Positions 284 to 49,960 of a stretch of 64,000 nt of DNA are shown here, piece after piece; positions within the stretch are counted from its first letter, which is position 1, and each line of letters opens with the position of its first letter. The notes under the pieces are model-generated. The model saw only the letters and a program-made list of their open reading frames with translations, made no database searches and was not told the DNA's origin. Source of the stretch: Loxodes magnus. Its lineage: Eukaryota > Ciliophora > Karyorelictea > Loxodida > Loxodidae. Location of the stretch: assembly GCA_946699065.1 (NCBI GenBank), contig CAMPDV010000120.1:1-64000 (forward strand). Reading direction: 5' to 3'. The translations under genes and the position numbers were made by a program.

Positions 284-867
284 AAATTTAGAAGCAGCTA
301 AAAAAAACAGAATAACTAGAACTTATAAAAATATGACAAAACTATAAAGCTAATATTTGCATTAATCCATACTTATCAAAAGAATAAATATAATTATTTT
401 GAATTGGATTCTAAAATATTATCGGTCATTTAAGAGCATCATACAGAATAAACTTAAATTAAGATAAGCAGGATAAAGATAATAAATCATAATACATTAT
501 AAAGAAAAACTAGAGTAAGAGTTAATTTATGTATGTGAAGAAATTATATATTATAGTAGATAATTTTTTAATAAAGAACGCTATTTCAAGTTGAGAAAAA
601 GTTTATTATCTAAAAACAAAGGGAGATTACTAAGATGACTTGCTGAGTTGTTAACTTCTGAAGAGAGTAAAATAAAATATAAAAAATTTGAATTTGCTGA
701 AAAGATATTGAAGTTTTATTATTAGGCGACAGTAATAGCTACAGCAAACATACCATAATATGATAGTCTTCGTTTAGATCTTGTCTTAAGCTTTTTGGTA
801 TTTTACTATGAAGTAATGAAAATATTTCGAAAAAGCAAGCAGATTAGCAAGGAATGTGAATGCTGAA
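284..867 (+). pseudogene. 14-3-3 protein pseudogene, unit 1 copy
   Basis: Read with TAA/TAG as Gln, this stretch shows the middle of a 14-3-3 phosphoserine-binding adaptor. The segments resemble the family blocks NASxxESKVFYLK, KGDYYRYLAE, and the helix ending in an LNFSVFYYE-type motif. This copy is badly broken. Compared with the unit 2 copy it has an extra base near 552, a missing A near 630 (before the ATGACTTGC), an extra base near 822, and the shared in-frame TGAs. The last helix and the conserved STLIMQLLRDNLTLW block are absent, because the sequence runs straight into an antisense U2 fragment at about 870. It is a dead relic; the family call is firm, the exact 5' end is not. Confidence 0.8.
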
Positions 868-869
868 AT

Positions 870-991
870 ACCCTTCGTCCCCAAAGAAAAATTTGACTGC
901 GAAAATAACCCACTTCATGAGTGGATACCAGTTTTCACTCTGATAAGAACAGATACTACACTTGAGTTTAGCCAAAAGGGTGAGAAGATAT
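870..991 (-). pseudogene. Truncated U2 snRNA fragment (5' two-thirds), unit 1
   Basis: On the minus strand from 991 the sequence follows the full U2 genes of this window through the branch-point-pairing GTAGTA region, the CCACT/AGTGG hairpin and the Sm-like AATTTTTC site. It then stops near ACGAAGGG, so the two 3' stem-loops are missing. It carries substitutions such as CTCACCC for CTCGGCC in stem I. The U2-type upstream flank is kept to about 1050. It cannot make a normal U2 RNA. It is fused tail-to-tail with the 14-3-3 relic. Confidence 0.9.
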
Positions 992-4000: not shown

Positions 4001-4572
4001 CAAAAAAGAGATTTAATTATTATATTTAAATAGAATATATTGAGGAATCGCAAGCTTTAGCATATCTCAAAATTATTACATTAAAAATCACGATGAAGCT
4101 TCATAAACAAGAAGCCTCTTTTTAGTATAATCTAAAATTTAATTGAAATGTGTTTTCACTTTTGTAAATTATAACAAAAAACCTAAATCTAATAAGTCTA
4201 GAAATTTAAAATAAAAGAGAAATTAGTTGGAAATCTATAAATTTATTATTACTCTTTACTATTTCAAATTTTTTTAATTTAGCTATTATGTGATATTTAT
4301 TTTTTAAATATCATATACAAATATACTTCAGATGAAGTCAATTATATTCCTTAAGCTCCTTATTATTATTATATTTATATATTTTAGATATTTAAATTAA
4401 CATTGAAAGAAATAAGCTTGGCAATATTTTATATATCTACTTTAACTTTTAAACTAAGGTATAAAAACTTTCCAAAATTAAAAAATTAAATTTTCAATTT
4501 TTAGCAAAGAAATAAATATAAACTTTAACTTTATAATTAGATAGTTCATTTACCATTTTTCATAGATGATTA
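1060..4572. other. Very AT-rich gene-poor stretch
   Basis: I recognise no RNA or protein family here. Two weak TGA-free frames stand out. On the minus strand, about 2650-2940, there are slightly GC-richer codons around a GTAGCAGGAAAT run. On the plus strand, about 3990-4155, there is a short frame that is shifted by one base in unit 2. Both could be decayed exons. The rest is AT-rich sequence with no visible structure. Confidence 0.5.
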
Positions 4573-4805
4573 AATTTAGATAAGTAACTACTATTTTCAT
4601 GGTACTTAAATAAAAATAGCTTTGCTTATCATTTTTATTAATTTTATTAAATTTTATAAAACTAAATTTTATTATCAAACCATTTATTTAAATATACTTA
4701 GTTCTTTCATTTTACTTAGGAAATTATAGTTATTTCTTTGCTTAATCCTTTAATTCTTTTCATTAATACCATTTAAATTCAATTATTACGTGTTTAATAT
4801 AAAAT

Positions 4806-5315
4806 ATGAGTCTTCGTGTCCCCAACGTGTTTACTCAAATGCCAAGTCTTATTGTTTCTCCTTCCAAACTTTACTTCGGAAGTGAATGACCTCTAAATCT
4901 CGTCCTACCTCCTTTATAGATCAATTCTTCTTCAGGACTTGCCGAAGAACTGGCGGGCACTAGCAAGAAATAGTTTTAAAAAGAATTCTCAAGTCCGAGC
5001 TTGTCCTCATACTAATAAAAAGGCTTTCGCTAAGTCCATGTGTCATAGTTGCTATCAAAATAGAGGAAGAAACATAAAAGCGTGGAAATGTGAACATAAA
5101 TAAAAACCTCATTATGCAAAAGGAATGTGCTAAGTGTGCTACTTACAGAACTATTATAAAAGTAGAAAGGAAGTATAAATAAACGAAGATCAAGTGATAA
5201 AAGAAATTAGTAACGGAAGATAAGATTAAGGGAATATGAGTTCCAAAGGCAACTGTATTAATAAAAATGCAATGCAAGAGCTACAGAGAGTAAAAATTTC
5301 AAAGAAGCATACTGA
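4806..5315 (+). pseudogene. Double C-x-H...C-x2-C zinc-finger gene, frameshifted copy
   Basis: Same gene as the intact-looking copy at 36284-36790, recognisable from ATGAGTCTTCG to the stop in GCATACTGA. This copy has one extra T near 4975 (TTTT for TTT), which breaks the frame between the N-terminal part and the zinc-binding region. An extra AG near 5288 also makes it overrun the shared stop. The zinc-binding half itself is open: CPH...CHSC followed by CEH...CQVC, each a C-x-H-x10-C-x2-C unit. The in-frame TGA at codon 28 is present as in all copies. It is probably non-functional. The function of the family is unknown to me; similar double C-x-H repeats occur in ciliate proteins. Confidence 0.75.
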
Positions 5316-5589
5316 GTATGTTTAAAGACAATATGTTAAAATTTGATTATCATAAACACTTCAATCTTGATTGATCATTTAACTTTTACTCATTAATATG
5401 TTTTAAAATATTTTATAAAGTTAAACATATTTTTAATACTGATTAAGAGGTTCTGTATTAACATTAGTAATTATCTTATGAAAGATAGGATAAAGTTAAG
5501 TTATATAATAACTTTATCTAGTTAATTTATAATAAAATAGTTAACTTAGAAATAACCAATAACACTTAAGATTTGATTGAGGAAATGCT

Positions 5590-5830
5590 TAATCGAACAA
5601 ATTAAAGGATATATTTACGTAGAAGCATAGTATGAAGTAACTATGAAAGATAATTAATATTTAAAATAATTGGAAGAAAGAGATTATATTTATAAAAATA
5701 AAAGTGAATTTTATAAGTTTTAGCGTAAAAAGAGACTGATAATGATAAAATTAAGTGTATAGATATATATAAAAATTTAAAATAATATAGATGCTTAAAT
5801 AGTAAAATATATAAAATATTAATTTTATTT
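5590..5830 (+). pseudogene. Coding-like fragment downstream of the zinc-finger gene
   Basis: With the ciliate code one frame reads a charged, helix-like stretch starting near the CTTAATCGAACAAAT motif (LIEQIKGYIYVEA...), followed by an E/R/K/Y-rich segment. An alternative frame immediately upstream reads DLIEEMLNR, so a frame change lies at about 5590. In the unit 2 left arm the downstream part is open in a different frame, and in the right arms part of it is deleted. It may be a 3' exon of the zinc-finger gene or a separate decayed gene. I do not recognise the product. Confidence 0.4.
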
Positions 5831-11560: not shown

Positions 11561-12779
11561 CTAAAACAAATAAAATTAATATTTTATATATTTTACTTTT
11601 AAGCATCTATATTATTTTAAATTTTTATAATTATCTATACACTTAATTTTATCATTATCCGTCTCTTTTACGCGAAGCTTATAAAATTCTTATATTTTAA
11701 TTATCTTTCATAGTTACTTCATACTATGCTTCTACGTAAATATATCCTTTAATTTGTTCGATTAAGCATTTCCTCAATCAAATCTTAAGTGTTATTGGTT
11801 ATTTCTAAGTTAACTATTTTATTATAAATTAACTAGATAAAGTTATTATATAACTTAACTTTATCCTATCTTTCATAAGATAATTACTAATGTTAATACA
11901 GAAACCTCTTAATCAGTATTAAAAATATGTTTAACTTTATAAAATATTTTAAAACATATTAATGAGTAAAAGTTAAATGATCAATCAAGATTGAAGTGTT
12001 TATGATAATCAAATTTAACATATTGTCTTTAAACATACTCAGTATGCTTCTTTGAAATTTTTACTCTGTAGCTCTTGCATTGCATTTTTATTAATACAGT
12101 TGCCTTTGGAACTCATATTCCCTTAATCTTATCTTCCGTTACTAATTTCTTTTATCACTTGATCTTCGTTTATTTATACTTCCTTTCTACTTTTATAATA
12201 GTTCTGTAAGTAGCACACTTAGCACATTCCTTTTGCATAATGAGGTTTTTATTTATGTTCACATTTCCACGCTTTTTGTTGTTTCTTCCTCTATTTTGAT
12301 AGCAACTATGACACATGGACTTAGCGAAAGCCTTTTTATTAGTATGAGGACAAGCTCGGACTTGAGAATTCTTTTTAAACTATTTCTTGCTAGTGCCCGC
12401 CAGTTCTTCGGCAAGTCCTGAAGAAGAATTGATCTATAAAGGAGGTAGGACAAGATTTAGAGGTCATTCACTTCCGAAGTAAAGTTTGGAAGGAGAAATA
12501 ATAAGACTTGGCATTTGAGTAAACACGTTGGGGACACGAAGACTCATATTTTATATTAAGCACGTAATAATTGAATTTAAATGGTATTAATGAAAAAGAA
12601 ATTAAAGGATTAAGCAAAGAAATAACTATAATTTCCTAAGTAAAATGAAAGAACTAAGTATATTTAAATAAATGGTTTGATAATAAAATTTATTAAAATT
12701 TAATAAAATAAATAAAAATGATAAGCAAAGCTATTTTTATTTAAGTACCATGAAAATAGTAATTACTTATCTAAATTTA
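11560..12779 (-). repeat. Inverted repeat, right arm (zinc-finger locus), unit 1
   Basis: Reverse complement of the left arm at 4573-5830, including the zinc-finger gene and the same flanks. Similarity ends within the CTAAATTTA tract near 12779. Confidence 0.85.
12039..12547 (-). pseudogene. Double C-x-H...C-x2-C zinc-finger gene, second copy, frameshifted
   Basis: Opposite-strand copy of the gene at 4806-5315. ATG is at 12547 and the shared stop at 12039-12041. The TTT run is intact here, so the N-terminal part reads into the first C-x-H-x10-C-x2-C unit. Two extra bases near 12280 (AACAACAAAAAG for AACAAAAAAG) then shift the frame between the two zinc units, losing the second one. The length is 509 against 507 in the intact copies. 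The conserved in-frame TGA or intron near codon 28 is present. Probably a recent pseudogene. Confidence 0.75.
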
Positions 12780-13243
12780 ATATTAGATTGAGGAATAAAT
12801 AAAAGAATTCTGATTATAGTTATACGAATTATTAGTTAGATTCAGATGAATTAAATGCTAGTTTCCATTAGAGTGGTTGATGATTATATATATTTAACAG
12901 TATAAAATTTGGTAGAAAAATAATGAAATAAAATCTAAAATTTATTGAGTTATAATGATTGTGTTTATTTATTTAATTTTAAAGAATATTAATTATAAAA
13001 ATATTTGATAAAGCTTAATTAAGAAAATAAAAGAACAACAGAAAAATTAATTTTAGAAAATATTTAAAAATAAAATTAAAAGAAAAGATAATTTTAAGAT
13101 ACTTTACATGCAAGGAATAATTATAATAGCAACGAAGTATATTACATTTTGCAGTGGTATTTATTTCTAAGATATTACAATTTTAACTACTATTGTAATT
13201 ATTTTTAGTAATTGTTTCATATTTCATTTAGTTAATAAATTAT

Positions 13244-14250: not shown

Positions 14251-14488
14251 TTTATAATCTGATTATTTAATGATAATTTTATAAAATTTTTATTTTGAAA
14301 TTTTTTTGAAAAGGAGATTCTAAGAATTTTTTCATTAAACTTACAACTTCAATCAAACATAAAAAATGTGTAAAAATATTTAATTATTTTCAATCAATAA
14401 ATTTGTATTATCTTAAAATGAATTTATCAAAATTAAAGTAGAAACAATTTGAATGGTTTAAATTAAAAAAGAATAAATATAATAGCTT

Positions 14489-14506
14489 TTATTAATGTAA
14501 AGTAAT
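14489..14506. other. Empty target site of retroelement copy 1
   Basis: A single TTATTAATGTAAAGTAAT here corresponds to the two near-identical 18-bp copies flanking the insertion in unit 2 (45978-45995 and 46852-46869). Unit 1 therefore represents the pre-insertion state. Confidence 0.85.
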
Positions 14507-14839
14507 GAATGTCAATAACTACACTAATAATTTATAAATGCTTTAATAAATTATTTCTTTAAATTTTAAATTTTTTAATTTTCTATTAAAGTTAAATTAA
14601 TTTTTACTAAAATCCACATCAATTTATTTAAAAAATAACAATTTAAAAAGATAAAATATTATAGTACAAAAAAGCATTGTATTTTGTATTAAAAATATAA
14701 TAATCTATATCTATTTTAATTTAAAACATAAAGCTATTAAATATATTATAATTATTATAAAATAATTATAATATAAATAAAGAGATTATTTTCATTTCCA
14801 AAAACAATATTAAAAAAGGAAAATATGCAAATAATTTAT

Positions 14840-14853
14840 TATAGAGTTATTTT
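14840..14853. other. Empty target site of retroelement copy 2
   Basis: A single TATAGAGTTATTTT is present here. In unit 2 it is duplicated on each side of the second insertion (47204-47217 and 48072-48085). Confidence 0.85.
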
Positions 14854-15722: not shown

Positions 15723-15930
15723 ATACCTTCTCGGCCTTTTGGCTAAGATCAAGTGTAGTATCTGTTCTTATCAGTGTGAAAACTGGTATCCACTCATGAA
15801 GTGGGTTGTTTTCGCAGTCCAATTTTTCTTTGGGGACGAAGGGTAGCTCGGCATGCCGAGTCCTTTGTCGAAGGTCGCCTTAGCATTACACTCAAGCTTT
15901 GTGTGGCCTACCCAATCCCCTCCGGGGATA
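15723..15930 (+). ncRNA. U2: U2 spliceosomal snRNA
   Basis: U2 pairs with the intron branch point in the spliceosome. The 5' end ATACCTTCTCGG begins stem I (CGGCC-TTTT-GGCT...), followed by the invariant GTGTAGTATCTGTTCTTATC that contains the branch-point-pairing GTAGTA. Next are a CCACT-CATGA-AGTGG hairpin, the Sm site CAATTTTTC, a long stem III whose tip is the palindrome CTCGGCATGCCGAG, a stem-loop with ACAC/GTGT, and a terminal CCCC-TCC-GGGG hairpin. The 3' end is uncertain by some bases; about 208 nt is rather longer than human U2 (188 nt). It is convergent with the copy at 17217-17424. All core elements are intact, so it may be functional. Confidence 0.95.
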
Positions 15931-17177: not shown

Positions 17178-17548
17178 TTAAATTTTTATAGATAAAATTT
17201 TATTCTGTTTAAATTATATCCCCGGAGGGGATTGGGTAGGCCACACAAAGCTTGAGTGTAATGCTAAGGCGACCTTCGACAAAGGACTCGGCATGCCGAG
17301 CTACCCTTCGTCCCCAAAGAAAAATTGGACTGCGAAAACAACCCACTTCATGAGTGGATACCAGTTTTCACACTGATAAGAACAGATACTACACTTGATC
17401 TTAGCCAAAAGGCCGAGAAGGTATGTTTATATTTCCCTTTTTCCTATTTAAACTTCATTCCACTTAGTTTATTAAGGTTTTTCCTTTAAATATTTAAATT
17501 TATAAAATTATTTAAACTTTATAAATTTAGAAATGTTTTAGAAAAAAT
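17178..17548 (-). repeat. Inverted repeat, right arm (U2 locus), unit 1
   Basis: Mirror copy of 15605-15972 carrying the second U2 gene and its upstream flank. Confidence 0.88.
17217..17424 (-). ncRNA. U2: U2 spliceosomal snRNA, inverted copy
   Basis: The reverse complement is identical by eye to the U2 gene at 15723-15930 over the RNA itself, with the same stem I, GTAGTA, Sm site, palindromic stem III tip and terminal hairpin. It is transcribed toward the other U2 gene, 3' end to 3' end. The identity suggests gene conversion or a recent inverted duplication. Confidence 0.95.
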
Positions 17549-31476: not shown

Positions 31477-31764
31477 GTAATTCTTCAACTATTTTATACC
31501 TTCTTTATTATTATGGAGCTACTTAACTATCCTATCTAAATGATTTAACCGATTAAAACGTAGAAAGTATTGGAATATAACCTGTTTAGTTATAATTGTA
31601 AAAGTAAAATTTTATAAATGTTTAACCAGCATAATCACAAGAAAAATCTATATTCAATGAAGTGAAATTAATTTTTCCAAACCAACATAGATAGGACGAG
31701 AATTAAAACTCTTTATAGCAAAGCATCTTTTTAATAGATTCACTCTCTTTAAGCAAAAACAAAA

Positions 31765-32345
31765 TTTAGAAGCAGTTAAAAAAACAGAATAACTAGAACT
31801 TATAAAAATATGACAAAATTATAAAAGCTAATATTTGCATTAATCCATACTTATCAAAAGAATAAATATAATTATTTTGAATTGGATTCTAAAATATTTT
31901 CGGTCATTTAAGAGCATCATACAGAATAAACTTAAATTAAGATTAAGCAGGATAAAGATAATAAATCATAATACATTATAAAGAAAAACTAGAGTAAGAG
32001 TTAATTTAAGTATGTGAAGAAATTATATATATAGTAGATAATTTTTTAATAAAGAACGCTATTTCAAGTTGAGAAAAAGTTTATTATCTAAAAACAAAGG
32101 GAGATTACTAAAGATGACTTGCTGAGTTGTTAACTTCTGAAGAGAGTAAAATAAAATATAAAGAATTTGAATTTGCTGAAAAGATATTGAAGTTTTATTA
32201 TTAGGCGACAGTAATAGCTACAGCAAACATACCATAATATGATAGTCTTCGTTTAGATCTTGTCTTAAACTTTTCGGTATTTTACTATGAAGTAATGAAA
32301 GATTTCGAAAAAGCAAGCAGATTAACAAGGAATGCGTATGTTGAA
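31765..32345 (+). pseudogene. 14-3-3 protein pseudogene, unit 2 copy (better preserved)
   Basis: From about 31977 to 32343 one frame is continuous for over 120 codons, apart from two TGAs. It matches the 14-3-3 core: VDNFLIKNA (family: ...FLIPNAS), VYYLKTKGDYQR followed by TGA at the invariant Tyr of KGDYYRYLAE, and LNFSVFYYEVMKDFEKASRLTRNA-like helix residues. Upstream, an AVKKTEQLE block resembles the N-terminal EQAERYE region, and a W...IFSVIQE region resembles WRIISSIEQ. The protein is cut off at the U2 fragment, so the last helix is lost. The family is certain; it cannot make a full 14-3-3. Two TGAs in a gene that uses TGA as its only stop mark it as dead. Confidence 0.88.
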
Positions 32346-32347
32346 AT

Positions 32348-32469
32348 ACCCTTCGTCCCCAAAGAAAAATTGTACTGCGAAAACAACCCACTTCATGAGT
32401 GGATACCAGTTTTCACTCTTATAAGAACAGATACTACACTTGAGTTTAGCCAAAAGGGTGAGAAGATAT
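32348..32469 (-). pseudogene. Truncated U2 snRNA fragment, unit 2
   Basis: Same truncated U2 as 870-991, with the 5' end at 32469 and the break after ACGAAGGG. It shares the stem I changes, so the truncation and decay predate the tandem duplication. The upstream U2 flank is kept. Confidence 0.9.
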
Positions 32470-35500: not shown

Positions 35501-36050
35501 ATTTAAATAGAATATATTGAGAATCGCAAGCTTTAGCATATCTCAAAATTATTACATTAAAAATCACGATGAAGCTTCATAAACAAGAAGCCTCTTTTAA
35601 GTATAATCTAAAATTTAATTGAAATGTGTTTTCATTTTTGTAAATTATCAACAGAAACCTAAATCTAATAAGTCTAGAAATTTAAAATAAAAGAGAAATT
35701 AGTTGGAAATCTATAAAATTATTATTACTCTTTACTATTTCAAATTTTTTAAATTTAGGTTTATGTGATATTTATTTTTTAAATATCATATACAAATATA
35801 CTTCAGATGAAGTCAATTAAATTCCTTAATCAACTTATTATTGTTATATTTATACATTTTAGATATTTAAATTAACACAAAGAAAGGCATATGCTTTGAA
35901 GTATTTTATATATCTACTTTAACTTTTTAACTAAGGTATAAAAACTTTCCAAAATTAAAAAATTAAATTTTCAATTTTTAGCAAAGAAATAAATATAAAC
36001 TTTAACTTTATAATTAGATAGTTCATTTACCATTTTTCATAGATGATTAA
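32545..36050. other. AT-rich stretch, equivalent of 1060-4572
   Basis: Same gene-poor content as in unit 1, with scattered substitutions and small indels. The weak plus-strand frame near 35465-35630 has lost one base here. Confidence 0.5.
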
Positions 36051-36283
36051 ATTTAGATAAGTAACTACTATTTTCATGGTACTTAAATAAAAATAGCTTT
36101 GCTTATCATTTTTATTTATTTTATTAAATTTTATAAACTAAATTTTATTATCAAACCATTTATTTAAATATACTTAGTTCTTTCATTTTACTTAGGAAAT
36201 TATAGTTATTTCTTTGCTTAATCCTTTAATTCCTTTTTCATTAATACCATTTAAATTCAATTATTACGTGCTTAATATAAAAT

Positions 36284-36790
36284 ATGAGTCTTCGTGTCCC
36301 CAACGTGTTTACTCAAATGCCAAGTCTTATTGTTTCTCCTTCCAAACTTTACTTCGGAAGTGAATGACCTCTAAATCTCGTCCTACCTCCTTTATAGATC
36401 AATTCTTCTTCAGGACTTGCCGAAGAACTGGCGGGCACTAGCAAGAAATAGTTTAAAAAGAATTCTCAAGTCCGAGCTTGTCCTCATACTAATAAAAAGG
36501 CTTTCGCTAAGTCCATGTGTCATAGTTGCTATCAAAATAGAGGAAGAAACAAAAAAGCGTGGAAATGTGAACATAAATAAAAACCTCATTATGCAAAAGG
36601 AATGTGCTAAGTGTGCTACTTACAGACCTATTATAAAAGTAGAAAGGAAGTATAAATAAACGAAGATCAAGTGATAAAAGAAATTAGTAACGGAAGATAA
36701 GATTAAGCGAGTGTGAGTTCCAAAGGCAACTGTATTAATGAAAATATAATGCAAGAGCTACAGAGTAAAAGTTTCAAAGAAGCATACTGA
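36284..36790 (+). CDS. Double C-x-H-x10-C-x2-C zinc-finger protein
   Basis: ATG 36284 to TGA 36788 is one frame of 169 codons, with a single TGA at codon 28 (36365-36367). Two identical-spacing zinc units follow: C66-x-H68-x10-C79-x2-C82 and C95-x-H97-x10-C108-x2-C111, each ending CY. The second contains HYAKGMC, a pattern I know from ciliate proteins of unknown function. The N-terminus (MSLRVPNVFTQMPSLIVSPS) is Ser/Pro-rich. The TGA may lie in a 54-nt intron at 36360-36413 (GTGAAT...TTCTTCAG), which keeps the frame and gives 150 residues. Its donor is atypical and it is GC-richer than expected for a ciliate intron, so read-through or decay are alternatives. All other frameshifts seen in unit 1 are absent. 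Confidence 0.75.
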
Positions 36791-37059
36791 GTATGTTTAA
36801 AGACAATATGTTAAAATTTGATTATCATAAACACTTCAATCTCTATTGATCATTTAACTTTTACTCATTAATATGTTTTAAAATATTTTATAAAGTTAAA
36901 CATATTTTTAATACTGATTAAGAGGTTTCTGTATTAACATTAGTAATTATCTTATGAAATAAGGATAAAGTTAAGTTATATAATAACTTTATCTAGTTAA
37001 TTTATAATTAAATAGTTAAACTTAGAAATAACCAATAACACTTAATATTTTGAATGAGG

Positions 37060-37300
37060 AAATACTTAATCGAACAAATTAAAGGATATATTTACGTAGA
37101 AGCATAGTATGAAGTAACTATGAAAGATAATTAATATTTTAAAATAAATGGAAGAAAGAGATTATATTTATAAAAATAAAAGAGAATTTTATAAGTTTAG
37201 CGTAAAAGAAACTGATAATGATAAAATTAAGTATATAGATAATTATAAAAATTTAAAATAATATAGCCGCTTAAATAGTAAAATATTTAAAATATTTATT
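37060..37300 (+). pseudogene. Coding-like fragment downstream of the zinc-finger gene, unit 2
   Basis: The same region as 5590-5830. Here a frame beginning near 37058 reads MRKYLIEQIKGYIYVEA. A second frame from about 37145 reads EERDYIYKNKREFYKFSVKE and stays open past 37300. Indels in poly-A tracts separate them. It may be a distal exon or a separate relic. Confidence 0.4.
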
Positions 37301-43050: not shown

Positions 43051-44270
43051 CTAAAACAAATAAAATTAATATTTTATATATTTTACTTTTAAGCATCTAT
43101 ATTATTTTAAATTTTTATATATATCTATACAAAAAATTTTATCATTATCCGTCTCTTTTACGCGAAGCTTATAAAATTCTCATATTTTAATTATCTTTCA
43201 TAGTTACTTCATACTATGCTTCTACGTAAATATATCCTTTAATTTGTTCGATTAAGTATTTCCTCAATCAAATCTTAAGTGTTATTGGTTATTTCTAAGT
43301 TTAACTATTTAATTATAAATTAACTAGATAAAGTTATTATATAACTTAACTTTATCCTATCTTTCATAAGATAATTACTAATGTTAATACAGAAACCTCT
43401 TAATCAGTATTAAAAATATGTTTAACTTTATAAAATATTTTAAAACATATTAATGAGCAAAAGTTAAATAATCAATAGAGATTGAAGTGTTTATGATAAT
43501 CAAATTTTAACATATTGTCTTTAAACATACTCAGTATGCTTCTTTGAAATTTTTACTCTGTAACTCTTGCATTATATTTTCATTAATACAGTTGCCTTTG
43601 GAACTCATATTCCCTTAATCTTATCTTCCGTTACTCATTTCTTTTATCACTTGATCTTCGTTTATTTATACTTCCTTTCTACTTTTATAATAGGTCTGTA
43701 AGTAGCACACTTAGCACATTCCTTTTGCATAGTGAGGTTTTTATTTATGTTCACATTTCCACGCTTTTTTGTTTCTTCCTCTATTTTGATAGCAACTATG
43801 ACACATGGACTTAGCGAAAGCCTTTTTATTAGTATGAGGACAAGCTCGGACTTGAGAATTCTTTTTAAACTATTTCTTGCTAGTGCCAGCCAATTCTTCG
43901 GCAAATCCTGAAGAAGAATTGATCTATAAAGGAGGTAGGACGAGATTTAAAGGTCATTCACTTCCGAAGTAAAGTTTGGAAGGAGAAATAATAAGACTTG
44001 GCATTTGAGTAAACACGTTGGGGACACGAAGACTCATATTTTATATTAAGCACGTAATAATTGAATTTAAATGGTATTAATGAAAAAGAAATTAAAGGAT
44101 TAAGCAAAGAAATAACTATAATTTCCTAAGTAAAATGAAAGAACTAAGTATATTTAAATAAATGGTTTGATAATAAAATTTATTAAAATTTAATAAAATA
44201 AATAAAAATGATAAGCAAAGCTATTTTTATTTAAGTACCATGAAAATAGTAATTACTTATCTAAATTTAA
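43050..44270 (-). repeat. Inverted repeat, right arm (zinc-finger locus), unit 2
   Basis: Equivalent of 11560-12779 and mirror of 36051-37300. Confidence 0.85.
43531..44037 (-). CDS. Double C-x-H-x10-C-x2-C zinc-finger protein, inverted copy
   Basis: ATG 44037 to TGA 43531, 507 bp, the same length as the copy at 36284-36790 and likewise without frameshift. Both zinc units are complete. It differs by a few substitutions, including a Leu-to-Phe change at the start of the second exon if the 54-nt intron is real. It keeps the TGA at codon 28. Both unit 2 copies are intact while both unit 1 copies are broken. Confidence 0.75.
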
Positions 44271-44732
44271 TATTAGATTGAGGAATAAATAAAAGAATTC
44301 TGATTATAGTTATACGAATTATTAGCTAGACTCAGTGAATTAAAAGCTAGTATCCACTAGAGTGGTTGATGATTATATATATTTAAAAGTATTTAATTTG
44401 GTAGAAAAATAATGAAATAAAATCTAAAATTTATTGAGTTATAATGATTGTGTTTATTTATTTAATTTTAAAGAATATTAATTATAAAAATATTTGATAA
44501 AGCTTAATTAAGAAAATAAAAGAACAACAGAAAAATTAATTTTAGAAAATATTAAAAAATAAAATTAAAAGAAAACATAATTTTAATATACTTTACATGC
44601 AAGGAATCATTATAATAGCAACGAAGTATATTACTTTTTGCAGTGGTATTTATTTCTAAGATATTACAATTTTAACTACTATTGTAATTATTTTTAGTAA
44701 TTGTTTCATATTTCATTTAGTTAATAAATTAT

Positions 44733-45738: not shown

Positions 45739-45977
45739 TTTTAAAATCTGATTATTTAATGATAATTTTATAAAATTTTTATTTTGAAATTTTTTCGAAA
45801 AGGAGATTCTAAGAATTTTTTCATTAAACTTACAACTTCAATCAAACATAAAAAATGTGTAAAAATCTTTAATTATTTTCAATCAATAAATTTGTATTAT
45901 CTTAAAATGAATTTATCAAAATTAAAGTAGAAACAATTTGAATGGTTTAAATTAAAAAAGAATAAATATAATAGCTT

Positions 45978-45995
45978 TTATTAATATAATGTAAT
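45978..45995. repeat. Target-site duplication, copy 1, left
   Basis: TTATTAATATAATGTAAT; it matches 46852-46869 at 17 of 18 positions. Confidence 0.85.
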
Positions 45996-46039
45996 AATAA
46001 TAATAATATACTTAAAGTTAGTAGAGTTTTGCATTCTCT

Positions 46040-46150
46040 GGAATTGCAACCAGTTCCTGCGGACAGTTTTTTTAACGTGGGTGTGATCCACGACCTTTTT
46101 ATTAAGTGGAAGGTTACCACTGTAACCGTTCAAGTGGTCTTGCAAAAAGC
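46040..46150 (-). other. GC-rich structured 3' region of the retroelement
   Basis: On the element strand this part contains potential hairpins ACCACT...AGTGGT and CGTGG...CCACG and the near-palindrome CTGTCCGCAG, just before the TTA tail. It may be a structured 3' recognition region. Both copies are identical here (second copy near 47265-47370). Confidence 0.5.
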
Positions 46151-46470
46151 TTTTATTTGTAGATCCCTGTTGGAGTTATTCATAGTTTATTGAGTTGTTT
46201 CCATGTTCTTTTCTGCTCTTATTCGTTTATTTTCTTTCATTATCAACAGTTTTTTAAAATATGTTGATTTGATTTGCAACATCAACAAAGTTTGTATTAT
46301 TGTCTTTATTTCGTTCTTTTTTATGATAATTTATTTTCTATATTTTCTAATCTTTTAATGAAACTTGTAGCAATCATTTCTTTTTCTGGATTCAATTCTG
46401 TTTTTAATTCTATTGGTATTTTTTCTATTTCCATTTTTGTGTCGCATTTAAAATTTTATTATGATTAAGT

Positions 46471-46821
46471 TCAGAGTTATTCTTCCGTTATTAATTTGCT
46501 ACAAATAAGTTATCTTCTAAGTATTAGTAATTCGTTGTTCTAATCTTCTATATTACTCATTAGTTCCCGTATTTTTTCGCCTAAGTTGTAAGTTGTTTCT
46601 TCATAATTTGAGATTACTTTTTACATTTGGTCTAATTAAATTTAAAGTTTTTGATTAGTTTCGTTTTTAGGTTAACTTATCTCTATTTATCCTACCATAA
46701 CTTTACCTTCTGAAGAAGAGCTTGACTCCTCCTATTGTTATTATTTTTTCTAAATTTCTTTTGCCGCTTTTCTCTTTAGGTTTCTAAGTTAATTTTTTGA
46801 GAGTCGAAGAGATTAATCCAT
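46471..46821 (-). CDS. Element-encoded protein, 116 aa, coiled-coil-like (copy 1)
   Basis: ATG 46821 to TGA 46471 with TAA/TAG as Gln. It starts MDQSLRLSKNQLRNLKRKAA (basic), then a Gln/Glu/Ser stretch ending EGKVMVG, then a ~60-residue K/E/Q/L heptad-like region (QKLQIQLDQMQKVISNYEE...EKIRELMSNIEDQNNELL) likely to form a coiled coil. This resembles the layout, not the sequence, of LINE ORF1 proteins. Copy 2 has exactly the same length, despite about 12% nucleotide divergence over the first 260 bp, with many silent changes. Past the TGA the same frame continues about 65 codons (from a second ATG, MEIEKIPIELKTEL), and a third frame runs to the tail. Confidence 0.7.
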
Positions 46822-46851
46822 TTTTTTGCTTCTAGATAAACTTTATTTTTT

Positions 46852-46869
46852 TTATTAATGTAATGTAAT
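46852..46869. repeat. Target-site duplication, copy 1, right
   Basis: TTATTAATGTAATGTAAT, partner of 45978-45995. Confidence 0.85.
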
Positions 46870-47203
46870 GAATGTCAATAACTACACTAATAAATTATAA
46901 ATGCTTTAATAAATTATTTCTTTAAATTTTAAATTTTTAAATTTTCTATTAAAGTTAAATTAATTTTTACTAAAATCCACATCAATTTATTTAAAAAATA
47001 ACAATTTAAAAAGATAAAATATTATAGTACAAAAAAGCATTGTATTTTGTATTAGAAATATAATAATCTATATCTATTTTAATTTAAAACATAAAGCTAT
47101 TAAATATATAATAATTATTATAAAATAATTATAATAAAAATAAAGAGATTATTTTCATTTCTAAATAACAATATTAAAAAGGGAAAATATGTAAATAATT
47201 TAT
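46870..47203. other. Unit DNA between the two retroelement copies
   Basis: Collinear with 14507-14839 of unit 1; no gene seen. Confidence 0.7.
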
Positions 47204-47217
47204 TATAGAGTTATTTT
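47204..47217. repeat. Target-site duplication, copy 2, left
   Basis: TATAGAGTTATTTT, identical to 48072-48085. Confidence 0.82.
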
Positions 47218-48071
47218 AATAATAATAATAATATACTTAAAGTTAGTAGAGTTTTGCATTCTCTGGAATTGCAACCAGTTCCTGCGGACAGTTTTTTTAA
47301 CGTGGGTGTGATCCACGACCTTTTTATTAAGTGGAAGGTTACCACTGTAACCGTTCAAGTGGTCTTGCAAAAAGCTTTTATTTGTAGATCTCTGTTGGAG
47401 TTATTCATAGTTTATTGAGTTGTTTCCATGTTCTTTTCTGCTCTTATTCGTTTATTTTCTTTCATTATCAACAGTTTTTTAAAATATGTTGATTTGATTT
47501 GCAACATCAACAAAGTTTGTATTATTGTCTTTATTTCGTTCTTTTTTATGATAATTTATTTTCTATATTTTCTAATCTTTTAATGAAACTTGTAGCAATC
47601 ATTTCTTTTTCTGGATTCAATTCTGTTTTTAATTCTATTGGTATTTTTTCTATTTCCATTTTTGTGTCGCATTTAAAATTTTATTATGATTAAGTTCAGA
47701 GTTATTCTTCCGTTATTAATTTGCTACAAATAAGTTATCTTCTAAGTATTAGTAATTCGTTGTTCTAATCTTCTATATTACTCATTAATTCCCTTATTTT
47801 TTCTCCTTAGTTATAAGCTATTTCTTCATACTTTGAAATTAATTTTTACATTTGATCTAGTTAAATTTAAAGTTTTTGATCATATTTGTTCTTAGGTTAT
47901 CTTATCTCTATAGATCCTACCATCACTTTACCTTCTGATGACGAACTTAACTCCTCTCGTTGCTATTGTTTTTTCTAAATTTCTTTTGCCGCTTTTCTCT
48001 TTAGGTTTCTAAGTTAATTCTTTGGGAGTCGAAGAGATTAATCCATTTTTTTTAAGCTTTTACAATTATTT
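47218..48071 (-). mobile_element. Short non-LTR-type retroelement, copy 2
   Basis: An 854-bp insertion, same orientation as copy 1 and only about 370 bp from it, with a 14-bp target-site duplication and a TTA-repeat tail. The tail-proximal ~570 bp (47218-47787) match copy 1 with a single difference. The 5' ~280 bp differ at about 12% of positions. The sharp change suggests recombination, gene conversion or template switching between element lineages. Confidence 0.8.
47696..48046 (-). CDS. Element-encoded protein, 116 aa, coiled-coil-like (copy 2)
   Basis: ATG 48046 to TGA 47696, 351 bp as in copy 1. Protein changes are fewer than nucleotide changes: for example, the four-Ser run is kept with different codons, and RELMSN is kept though CGG/CTA became AGG/TTA. 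By eye, roughly half of about 32 differences are silent, where about a quarter would be expected without selection. This points to a protein that mattered for spread of the element. Confidence 0.7.
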
Positions 48072-48085
48072 TATAGAGTTATTTT
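48072..48085. repeat. Target-site duplication, copy 2, right
   Basis: TATAGAGTTATTTT, partner of 47204-47217. Confidence 0.82.
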
Positions 48086-48830: not shown

Positions 48831-49166
48831 TTTCTAAATTTATAAAGTTTAAATAATTTTATAAATTTAAATATTTAAAGGAAAAACCTTAATAAAATAA
48901 ATGGATTGAAGTTTAAATAGGAAAAAGGGAAATATAAACATACCTTCTCGGCCTTTTGGCTAAGATCAAGTGTAGTATCTGTTCTTATCAGTGTGAAAAC
49001 TGGTATCCACTCATGAAGTGGGTTGTTTTCGCAGTCCAATTTTTCTTTGGGGACGAAGGGTAGCTCGGCATGCCGAGTCCTTTGTCGAAGGTCGCCTTAG
49101 CATTACACTCAAGCTTTGTGTGGTCTACCCAATCCCCTCCGGGGATATAGTTTTAACAGAAAATTT
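48831..49166 (+). repeat. Inverted repeat, left arm (U2 locus), unit 2
   Basis: Equivalent of 15605-15972; mirrored at 49618-49960. Confidence 0.88.
48940..49147 (+). ncRNA. U2: U2 spliceosomal snRNA, unit 2
   Basis: Full-length U2 as at 15723-15930, with all core elements: stem I, GTAGTA, CCACT/AGTGG hairpin, Sm site AATTTTTC, CTCGGCATGCCGAG stem tip, terminal CCCC/GGGG hairpin. One difference from unit 1: GTGGTCTACC for GTGGCCTACC, in the 3' region. The same upstream flank is present. Confidence 0.95.
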
Positions 49167-49617: not shown

Positions 49618-49960
49618 TATTTTCTGTTAGAGCTATATCCCCGGAGGGGATTGGGTAGGCCACACAAAGCTTGAGTGTAATGCTAAGGCGACCTTAGACA
49701 AAGGACTCGGCATGCCGAGCTACCCTTCGTCCCCAAAGAAAAATTGGACTGCGAAAACAACCCACTTCATGAGTGGATACCAGTTTTCACACTGATAAGA
49801 ACAGATACTACACTTGATCTTAGCCAAAAGGCCGAGAAGGTATGTTTATATTTCCCTTTTTCCTATTTAAACTTCATTCCATTTATTTTATTAAGGTTTT
49901 TCCTTTAAATATTTAAATTTATAAAATTATTTAAACTTTATAAATTTAGAAATGTTTTTA
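49618..49960 (-). repeat. Inverted repeat, right arm (U2 locus), unit 2
   Basis: Mirror of 48831-49166. Confidence 0.88.
49636..49843 (-). ncRNA. U2: U2 spliceosomal snRNA, inverted copy, unit 2
   Basis: Full-length U2 on the minus strand, 5' end 49843. It differs from the other copies by one base in the linker after stem III (GTCTAAGG for GTCGAAGG in the RNA sense). Core elements are unchanged. Confidence 0.95.

Follow-up and report, generated by a model that had tools for sequence, protein, structure and literature searches.

A young, abundant family of short retroelements in Loxodes magnus, most probably ORF1-only and copied in trans

Introduction

How does a sequence of about 0.85 kb that carries no reverse transcriptase (RT) come to be inserted twice, 0.37 kb apart and in the same orientation, in a single unit of a tandem duplication? 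This question is raised by the window analysed here, i.e., a 64,000-nucleotide stretch of contig CAMPDV010000120.1 from the ciliate Loxodes magnus. From the letters alone, a first-pass annotation had proposed that the two copies represent a recent, short, non-autonomous and possibly undescribed retroelement family encoding a small protein. The macronuclear assembly of this species has been reported as 706 Mbp with about 2,700 RVT_1 copies (PMC11441545). The host assembly searched in our analysis holds 705,730,643 bases in 7843 contigs.

Results

Two insertions peculiar to one unit of a tandem duplication

The window is AT-rich (14.7–24.5% GC per 2 kb) and holds a tandem duplication, in which positions 1–31476 match positions 31477–64000 in pieces of 95.3–98.6% identity. 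A third unit starts at the window end, where the 6 kb that follow are 96.9–97.2% identical; two more stretches of the contig, at 108 and 140 kb, gave no match to the window. Other repeated features are present in these ~32-kb units. Six U2 snRNA matches were detected in the window (830–991, 15723–15916, 17231–17424, 32308–32469, 48940–49133, and 49650–49843), four of which score 144–146 bits and form inverted pairs, with the two weaker matches scoring 74 and 61 bits; the starts within a pair lie ~1.5 kb apart in unit 1 and ~0.7 kb apart in unit 2. A sequence of ~1.1 kb also occurs as inverted copies within each unit (43184–44271, 36046–37137, 4569–5667, and 11686–12781; 96.8–97.9% identity).

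The two element copies lie in unit 2, with the minus strand as the sense strand of both. Copy 1 (45996..46849, 854 bp) belongs to the alpha subfamily and begins with the longest 5' end seen, in which ATAAAGTTTATCTAGAAGC stands upstream of AAAAAAATGG. Copy 2 (47218..48070, 853 bp) is of the beta subfamily in its 5' part and of alpha type in its 3' part. The starts of the two copies are 1225 bp apart, and the copies are 96% identical over an 832-bp core. Insertion 1 is flanked by a target duplication of 20 bp with one mismatch (TTTTATTAATATAATGTAAT at 45976..45995 and TTTTATTAATGTAATGTAAT at 46850..46869), and insertion 2 by one of 15 bp (TTATAGAGTTATTTT at 47203..47217 and again at 48071..48085). 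In unit 1, the same targets are single and without insert, at 14487..14506 (one base different) and 14839..14853, and both target sites are also uninterrupted in unit 3 (locus L049). As both sites are empty in units 1 and 3, the inserts are peculiar to unit 2 and are younger than the unit duplication. The first-pass annotation thus described the size, orientation, spacing, empty unit-1 sites, and relative age of these insertions correctly; it was also right about the presence of target duplications, the lengths of which (given as 18 and 14 bp) are corrected here.

Each copy ends in a TA(TTA)n tail (45996..46008, minus strand, in copy 1), in keeping with the TTA-repeat tail proposed initially, and no terminal inverted or long terminal repeats were seen in the window copies. 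A 3' hairpin, CGTGG-N7-CCACG, is present at 46076..46092 (minus strand) of copy 1. Its stem is kept, with another loop, in one of two old relatives found at locus L090 (hereafter L090 plus), and in the second relative (L090 minus) one side of it reads CGGGG. The element 3' end also contains CTGG-loop-CCAG. As the 3' 168 nt of the element fold no better than shuffled sequences (z 0.01), any structure for recognition would have to consist of two small stems.

A young and abundant family with defined ends

With up to 3 mismatches allowed, motifs for the 3' and 5' ends were matched 1343 and 1431 times, respectively, across 705.7 Mb, with contigs or haplotypes held twice being counted twice. Reversed control patterns gave 0 matches, hence the copies are not due to chance, and the two counts reveal no deficit of 5' ends. 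A looser 3' pattern matched 96 places (controls 0), and among 87 places with printed letters, the hairpin loop was of the alpha type in 10 and of other types, mostly GAACAA, in 77. A scan of viral contigs for the 3' hairpin gave 0 matches.

A DNA search (40 candidates scored of 1704) listed 41 matches of 98–100% identity and at least 829 bp. We read 42 copies, namely the two in the window and 40 outside it (in 39 stretches); four of the 42 had twin flanks and were dropped, leaving 38 distinct copies. Since they were chosen by similarity, the copies read are the youngest. A target duplication of at least 11 bp net of mismatches flanks 35 of the 38, with three lacking a clear one. Target-duplication scores over all 42 rows had quartiles of 10.6, 12.9, and 14.4 (lowest 2.55). 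The 210 mispaired flanks scored lower: their median was 2.5, their 95th percentile 5.8, and their highest value 10.75. Assigned lengths are 13–20 bp in 31/38, and the assigned duplications often start with ATT, TAT, or TTA. Tails measure 11–25 nt, with TATTATTA beginning 35/38. Copies from elsewhere in the genome thus carry the tails and duplications that the first-pass annotation would expect of a short, recent, non-autonomous retroelement family. The longest 5' end is found in five of the 38, i.e., window copy 1 and those at L009, L010, L011, and L012, the duplication of the last being ambiguous. Taken together, the family is young and abundant.

Certain copies have unusual surroundings. At locus L022 (contig C10, 1109779–1111465), two copies meet at their tails, and one of them has apparently landed in the tail end of its neighbour. 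On contigs C22 (1425462–1459410) and C81 (226054–264365), element 5' ends recur at intervals of ~17 and ~19 kb, respectively; these are possibly tandem units that already held the element when they were multiplied, an order of events opposite to that in the window.

A frame readable only with reassigned stop codons

In NCBI translation table 27, UAA and UAG encode Gln. Two other codes were tried and dropped: under the standard code, the 64 kb contain no frame of 150 aa, and when UGA is kept as a stop (code 6), only pieces of 116 aa (from an ATG) and 62 aa result. Both were abandoned because the RT frames of this genome contain all of TGA, TAG, and TAA, each at near-constant numbers. The code of Loxodes magnus has been reported to use UGA as Trp or as the only stop (PMC11441545). 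The small protein of the element becomes visible in full only if TGA, too, is translated as Trp in the ciliate code, and such frames escape standard ORF finders.

In this code (TAA/TAG=Q, TGA=W), 213 codons are open on the minus strand of copy 1 (46183..46821) and of copy 2 (47408..48046), with the ATG six bases inside the common 5' end of the core in each. The copy 1 frame runs up to a TGA at 46180–46182, which may be its stop, and no further in-frame TGA follows codon 214 in this copy. Codon 214 is TGA in 38/38 distinct copies; it is TGG in L090 minus, and the sequence past it is alike in L090 minus and the element (WITENGVYRQKL vs WITPTGIYKQKL; WIT..G.Y.QKL), such that 213 aa would be a lower bound if this TGA is not the stop. 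The frame is in register to codon 213 in 37 of the 38 copies, one of these with a substitution inside the knuckle described below, and is shifted in one, the second copy at L022. In a protein search (150 places scored of 10,609 first-look candidates), matches span residues 1–213, or 2–213 in one case. In a code where each of the three stop codons can stand for a residue, openness of a frame does not by itself argue for coding; the case for coding rests instead on selection and on the conserved knuckle.

The protein looks ORF1-like from its architecture, i.e., a helical part followed by a zinc knuckle. A long helix is predicted at residues 54–120, in an AlphaFold model of poor confidence (mean pLDDT 60.5). 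The knuckle, assigned by motif (CWCCKSNQHILKNC, CX2CX4HX4C; 46246..46287, minus strand), is kept in L090 plus (CWYCQSWYHLLRYC) and lost in L090 minus. Pfam gave no match for the 213-aa protein, knuckle included, nor was a significant relative of the frame detected in the protein database or among PDB sequences. The 116-aa piece had no match in the protein search, and its seven Pfam matches all fell below the cut-offs; the protein search of the Myb-like gene of the window was also without match. At 0.85 kb and 213 aa, with no Pfam family of any kind, the element lacks a reverse transcriptase and an endonuclease, in agreement with the small protein without RT noted at first.

Purifying selection between subfamilies

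Copy 2 is of the beta type over its first 283 bases, a stretch matched at 39 other places with 97–98% identity (40 scored of 2198 candidates). Alpha and beta differ by 32 changes over codons 1–90, with a dN/dS of 0.19, and random placement of the same changes gave an equally low non-synonymous fraction in 3 of 1000 trials. The protein is thus under purifying selection between the alpha and beta subfamilies. In gap-rich alignments of the two old relatives at L090 with copy 1, third codon positions differ most (0.363 and 0.350), with values of 0.165–0.246 at the other codon positions.

Mosaic structure of copy 2

Along the sense strand, the two window copies differ at 32 of the first 265 positions and at only one of the remaining 567. 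The alleles at positions 382 and 628 are G and A in both, and A and G in the remaining 36 of the distinct copies. By an estimate from bit scores, a typical beta copy differs from copy 2 at about 8 of its first 281 bases and at about 22 in the rest, meaning that copy 2 is beta in front and alpha behind. The proposed conversion tract in copy 2 (47221..47787, minus strand) equals copy 1 but for one base and includes the two private alleles; this pattern of shared sites probably reflects gene conversion between the neighbouring copies 1 and 2 after insertion. An RT switching templates between a beta RNA and a copy 1 RNA, so that copy 2 was chimeric at birth, would leave the same sequence pattern, and beta-like places of intermediate identity do occur (98% for those on C411, C913, and C42). 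We nevertheless consider this unlikely: the G382/A628 alleles are confined to two neighbours 1.2 kb apart (2/38 distinct copies) and the tails of copies 1 and 2 are equal in length, which makes a local exchange the simpler account.

LINEs of the genome and the search for a parent

An RVT_1 search of the genome scored 150 places of 3403 candidates, and LINEs with ORF1, endonuclease, and RT do occur. Eight LINE loci were assigned to families A (L082, L085, L087, and, in part, L089), B (L083), C (L084 and L088), and D (L086). When the element was compared by BLAST with L082–L089, only short matches were returned and no LINE with a common 3' end or ORF1 was revealed; at L086, the end of an old element relative was found on the other strand. 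Unlike the element, LINEs A and C have their own GC-rich 3' hairpins followed by ATTT or T-run tails; for LINE D, the end appears to be a TTAA repeat. Two Loxodes magnus LINEs of ~5.3–5.5 kb with RT have been reported as rnd-1_family-27 and rnd-1_family-19 (PMC11441545), and these are perhaps our families A and C. Within 5 kb of the 150 RT places, no element 3' end was seen on the same strand by eye among the 100 listed of 1343 matches and the 96 from the looser pattern; on the other strand, one alpha element (C5) and one old relative (C910) lie near an RT. The full-length, RT-bearing relative sharing the element 3' end that the first-pass annotation suggested looking for was hence not found among the LINEs examined.

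Several features of these loci stand apart from the element. RT matches on one strand recur in steps of 2532 bp on contig C5131 (5395–26349) and 2504 bp on C20 (2028–7877); these are LINE pieces in tandem arrays, that on C20 being near the contig start. Positions ~3970–4390 of L090 contain another short sequence, richer in GC, that terminates in the 3' hairpin and ATTT tail of LINE A; no LINE A coding sequence was seen before it, and it is perhaps a non-autonomous parasite of LINE A. A further ORF1-like frame (MASKKQQNFEQ...), which includes a knuckle (CYVCNKQHQWKYC), lies on the reverse strand of L082, about 90 bp past the tail of LINE A, and perhaps marks another solo-ORF1 family.

Discussion

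The element unites defined ends, a short-repeat tail, target duplications, empty sites, and genome-wide abundance with a protein under selection, and the features expected of a solo-ORF1 element are all found, i.e., one ORF1-like frame under selection, an in-frame CCHC motif, and no RT or endonuclease. We are therefore largely confident that the element belongs to the ORF1-only (solo-ORF1) kind of non-autonomous, non-LTR retroelement, with a LINE probably copying it in trans. Element RNA of ~0.85 kb would be translated under the ciliate code to yield an ORF1-like protein with its helical part and CCHC knuckle, which would most likely bind the element's own RNA. The endonuclease and RT of a LINE would then copy this RNA from its 3' end via target-primed reverse transcription, a process with which target duplications of variable length and a 3' tail of short repeats are consistent. 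Annealing of the TA(TTA)n tail to an ATT-rich target may give rise to the duplications of mostly 13–20 bp. Following insertion, the two window copies would have exchanged sequence, most simply through gene conversion.

Other origins need to be weighed against this one. LINEs are abundant in this genome, as the RVT_1 search attests, and most Loxodes magnus LINE copies are reported to be incomplete (PMC11441545), which might suggest that the copies are ordinary 5'-truncated LINE 3' ends, with the frame being the end of an ORF2 or a product of chance. Truncation would, however, sit poorly with a 5'-motif count that does not fall below the 3' count, with a start codon placed six bases inside the common 5' end, and with the other 3' ends of the LINE loci examined; the lack of same-strand element ends near the RT places, among those listed, argues weakly in the same direction. 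We thus regard such an origin as highly improbable. The size, the tail, and the missing RT would equally suit a SINE derived from an RNA polymerase III transcript, its open frame being accidental, and the short sequence at L090 that ends in the LINE A hairpin and tail behaves as SINE-like parasites do. Yet selection of the coding type and a knuckle kept in a distant relative speak against an accidental frame, and the window contains neither a tRNA nor any Rfam family except U2, although divergent Pol III heads could escape such a search; a SINE thus appears improbable. An mRNA-like layout, with a very short 5' leader, an ATG, a frame, and a 3' untranslated part, could be expected of retrocopies of a host gene mRNA mobilised in trans, as for processed pseudogenes. 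Such retrocopies are the least probable of these alternatives given that the tails are of TTA type with no poly(A), and that alpha, beta, and further loop types (77/87 places) share the 3' core, by which copies themselves seem to be sources of copies.

For the ORF1-only element copied in trans, one tentative and rather doubtful extension is that its lineage has long existed without a LINE of matching 3' end, with its own RNA-binding protein selected in cis and RT drawn from other LINEs. If true, the ORF1 protein, and not a common tail, would decide which RNA gets copied. With its more than 1300 end-motif matches, a protein still under selection, and no parent found so far, this young family allows one to ask what an ORF1 protein does for a parasite lacking an RT. 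As to whether the element is undescribed, the family itself seems unnamed but its ORF1-only kind is already known, such that the initial suggestion of novelty may hold for the former alone. The account of the Loxodes magnus genome reports LINEs, but the terms ORF1, SINE, solo, and non-autonomous are absent from its main text; it annotates 915 interspersed repeat families (PMC11441545), among which the element family may be present under a number.

Parallels are known from several lineages. In mammals, HAL1 (half-L1) is a non-autonomous element that, like the one described here, encodes only ORF1p; it is derived from L1 (PMC5753468), whereas no parent was found for the Loxodes element. TRE5-A.2 of Dictyostelium keeps ORF1, lacks ORF2, and depends for its mobility on ORF2 protein that the full element supplies in trans; it derives from a known autonomous parent, one of which was not found for our element among the LINEs examined, and its family targets tRNA genes (PMC5391098). 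The germline of Paramecium tetraurelia has been reported to contain seven solo-ORF1 elements (A–G), likely mobilised in trans (PMC5405496). Those are germline elements, whereas ours was found in a macronuclear-type assembly; of note, Loxodes magnus is reported to be without extensive DNA elimination, with retrotransposon domains in both nuclei (PMC11441545). The element frame also needs UGA to be read as Trp, unlike those of Paramecium, and the likeness is one of layout. Some Paramecium solo-ORF1 elements share with ours a short 3' repeat, which is TAAA in three Paramecium cases and TTA here. In both ciliates, a single ORF1-like frame with a zinc finger end is present and RT is absent (PMC5405496).
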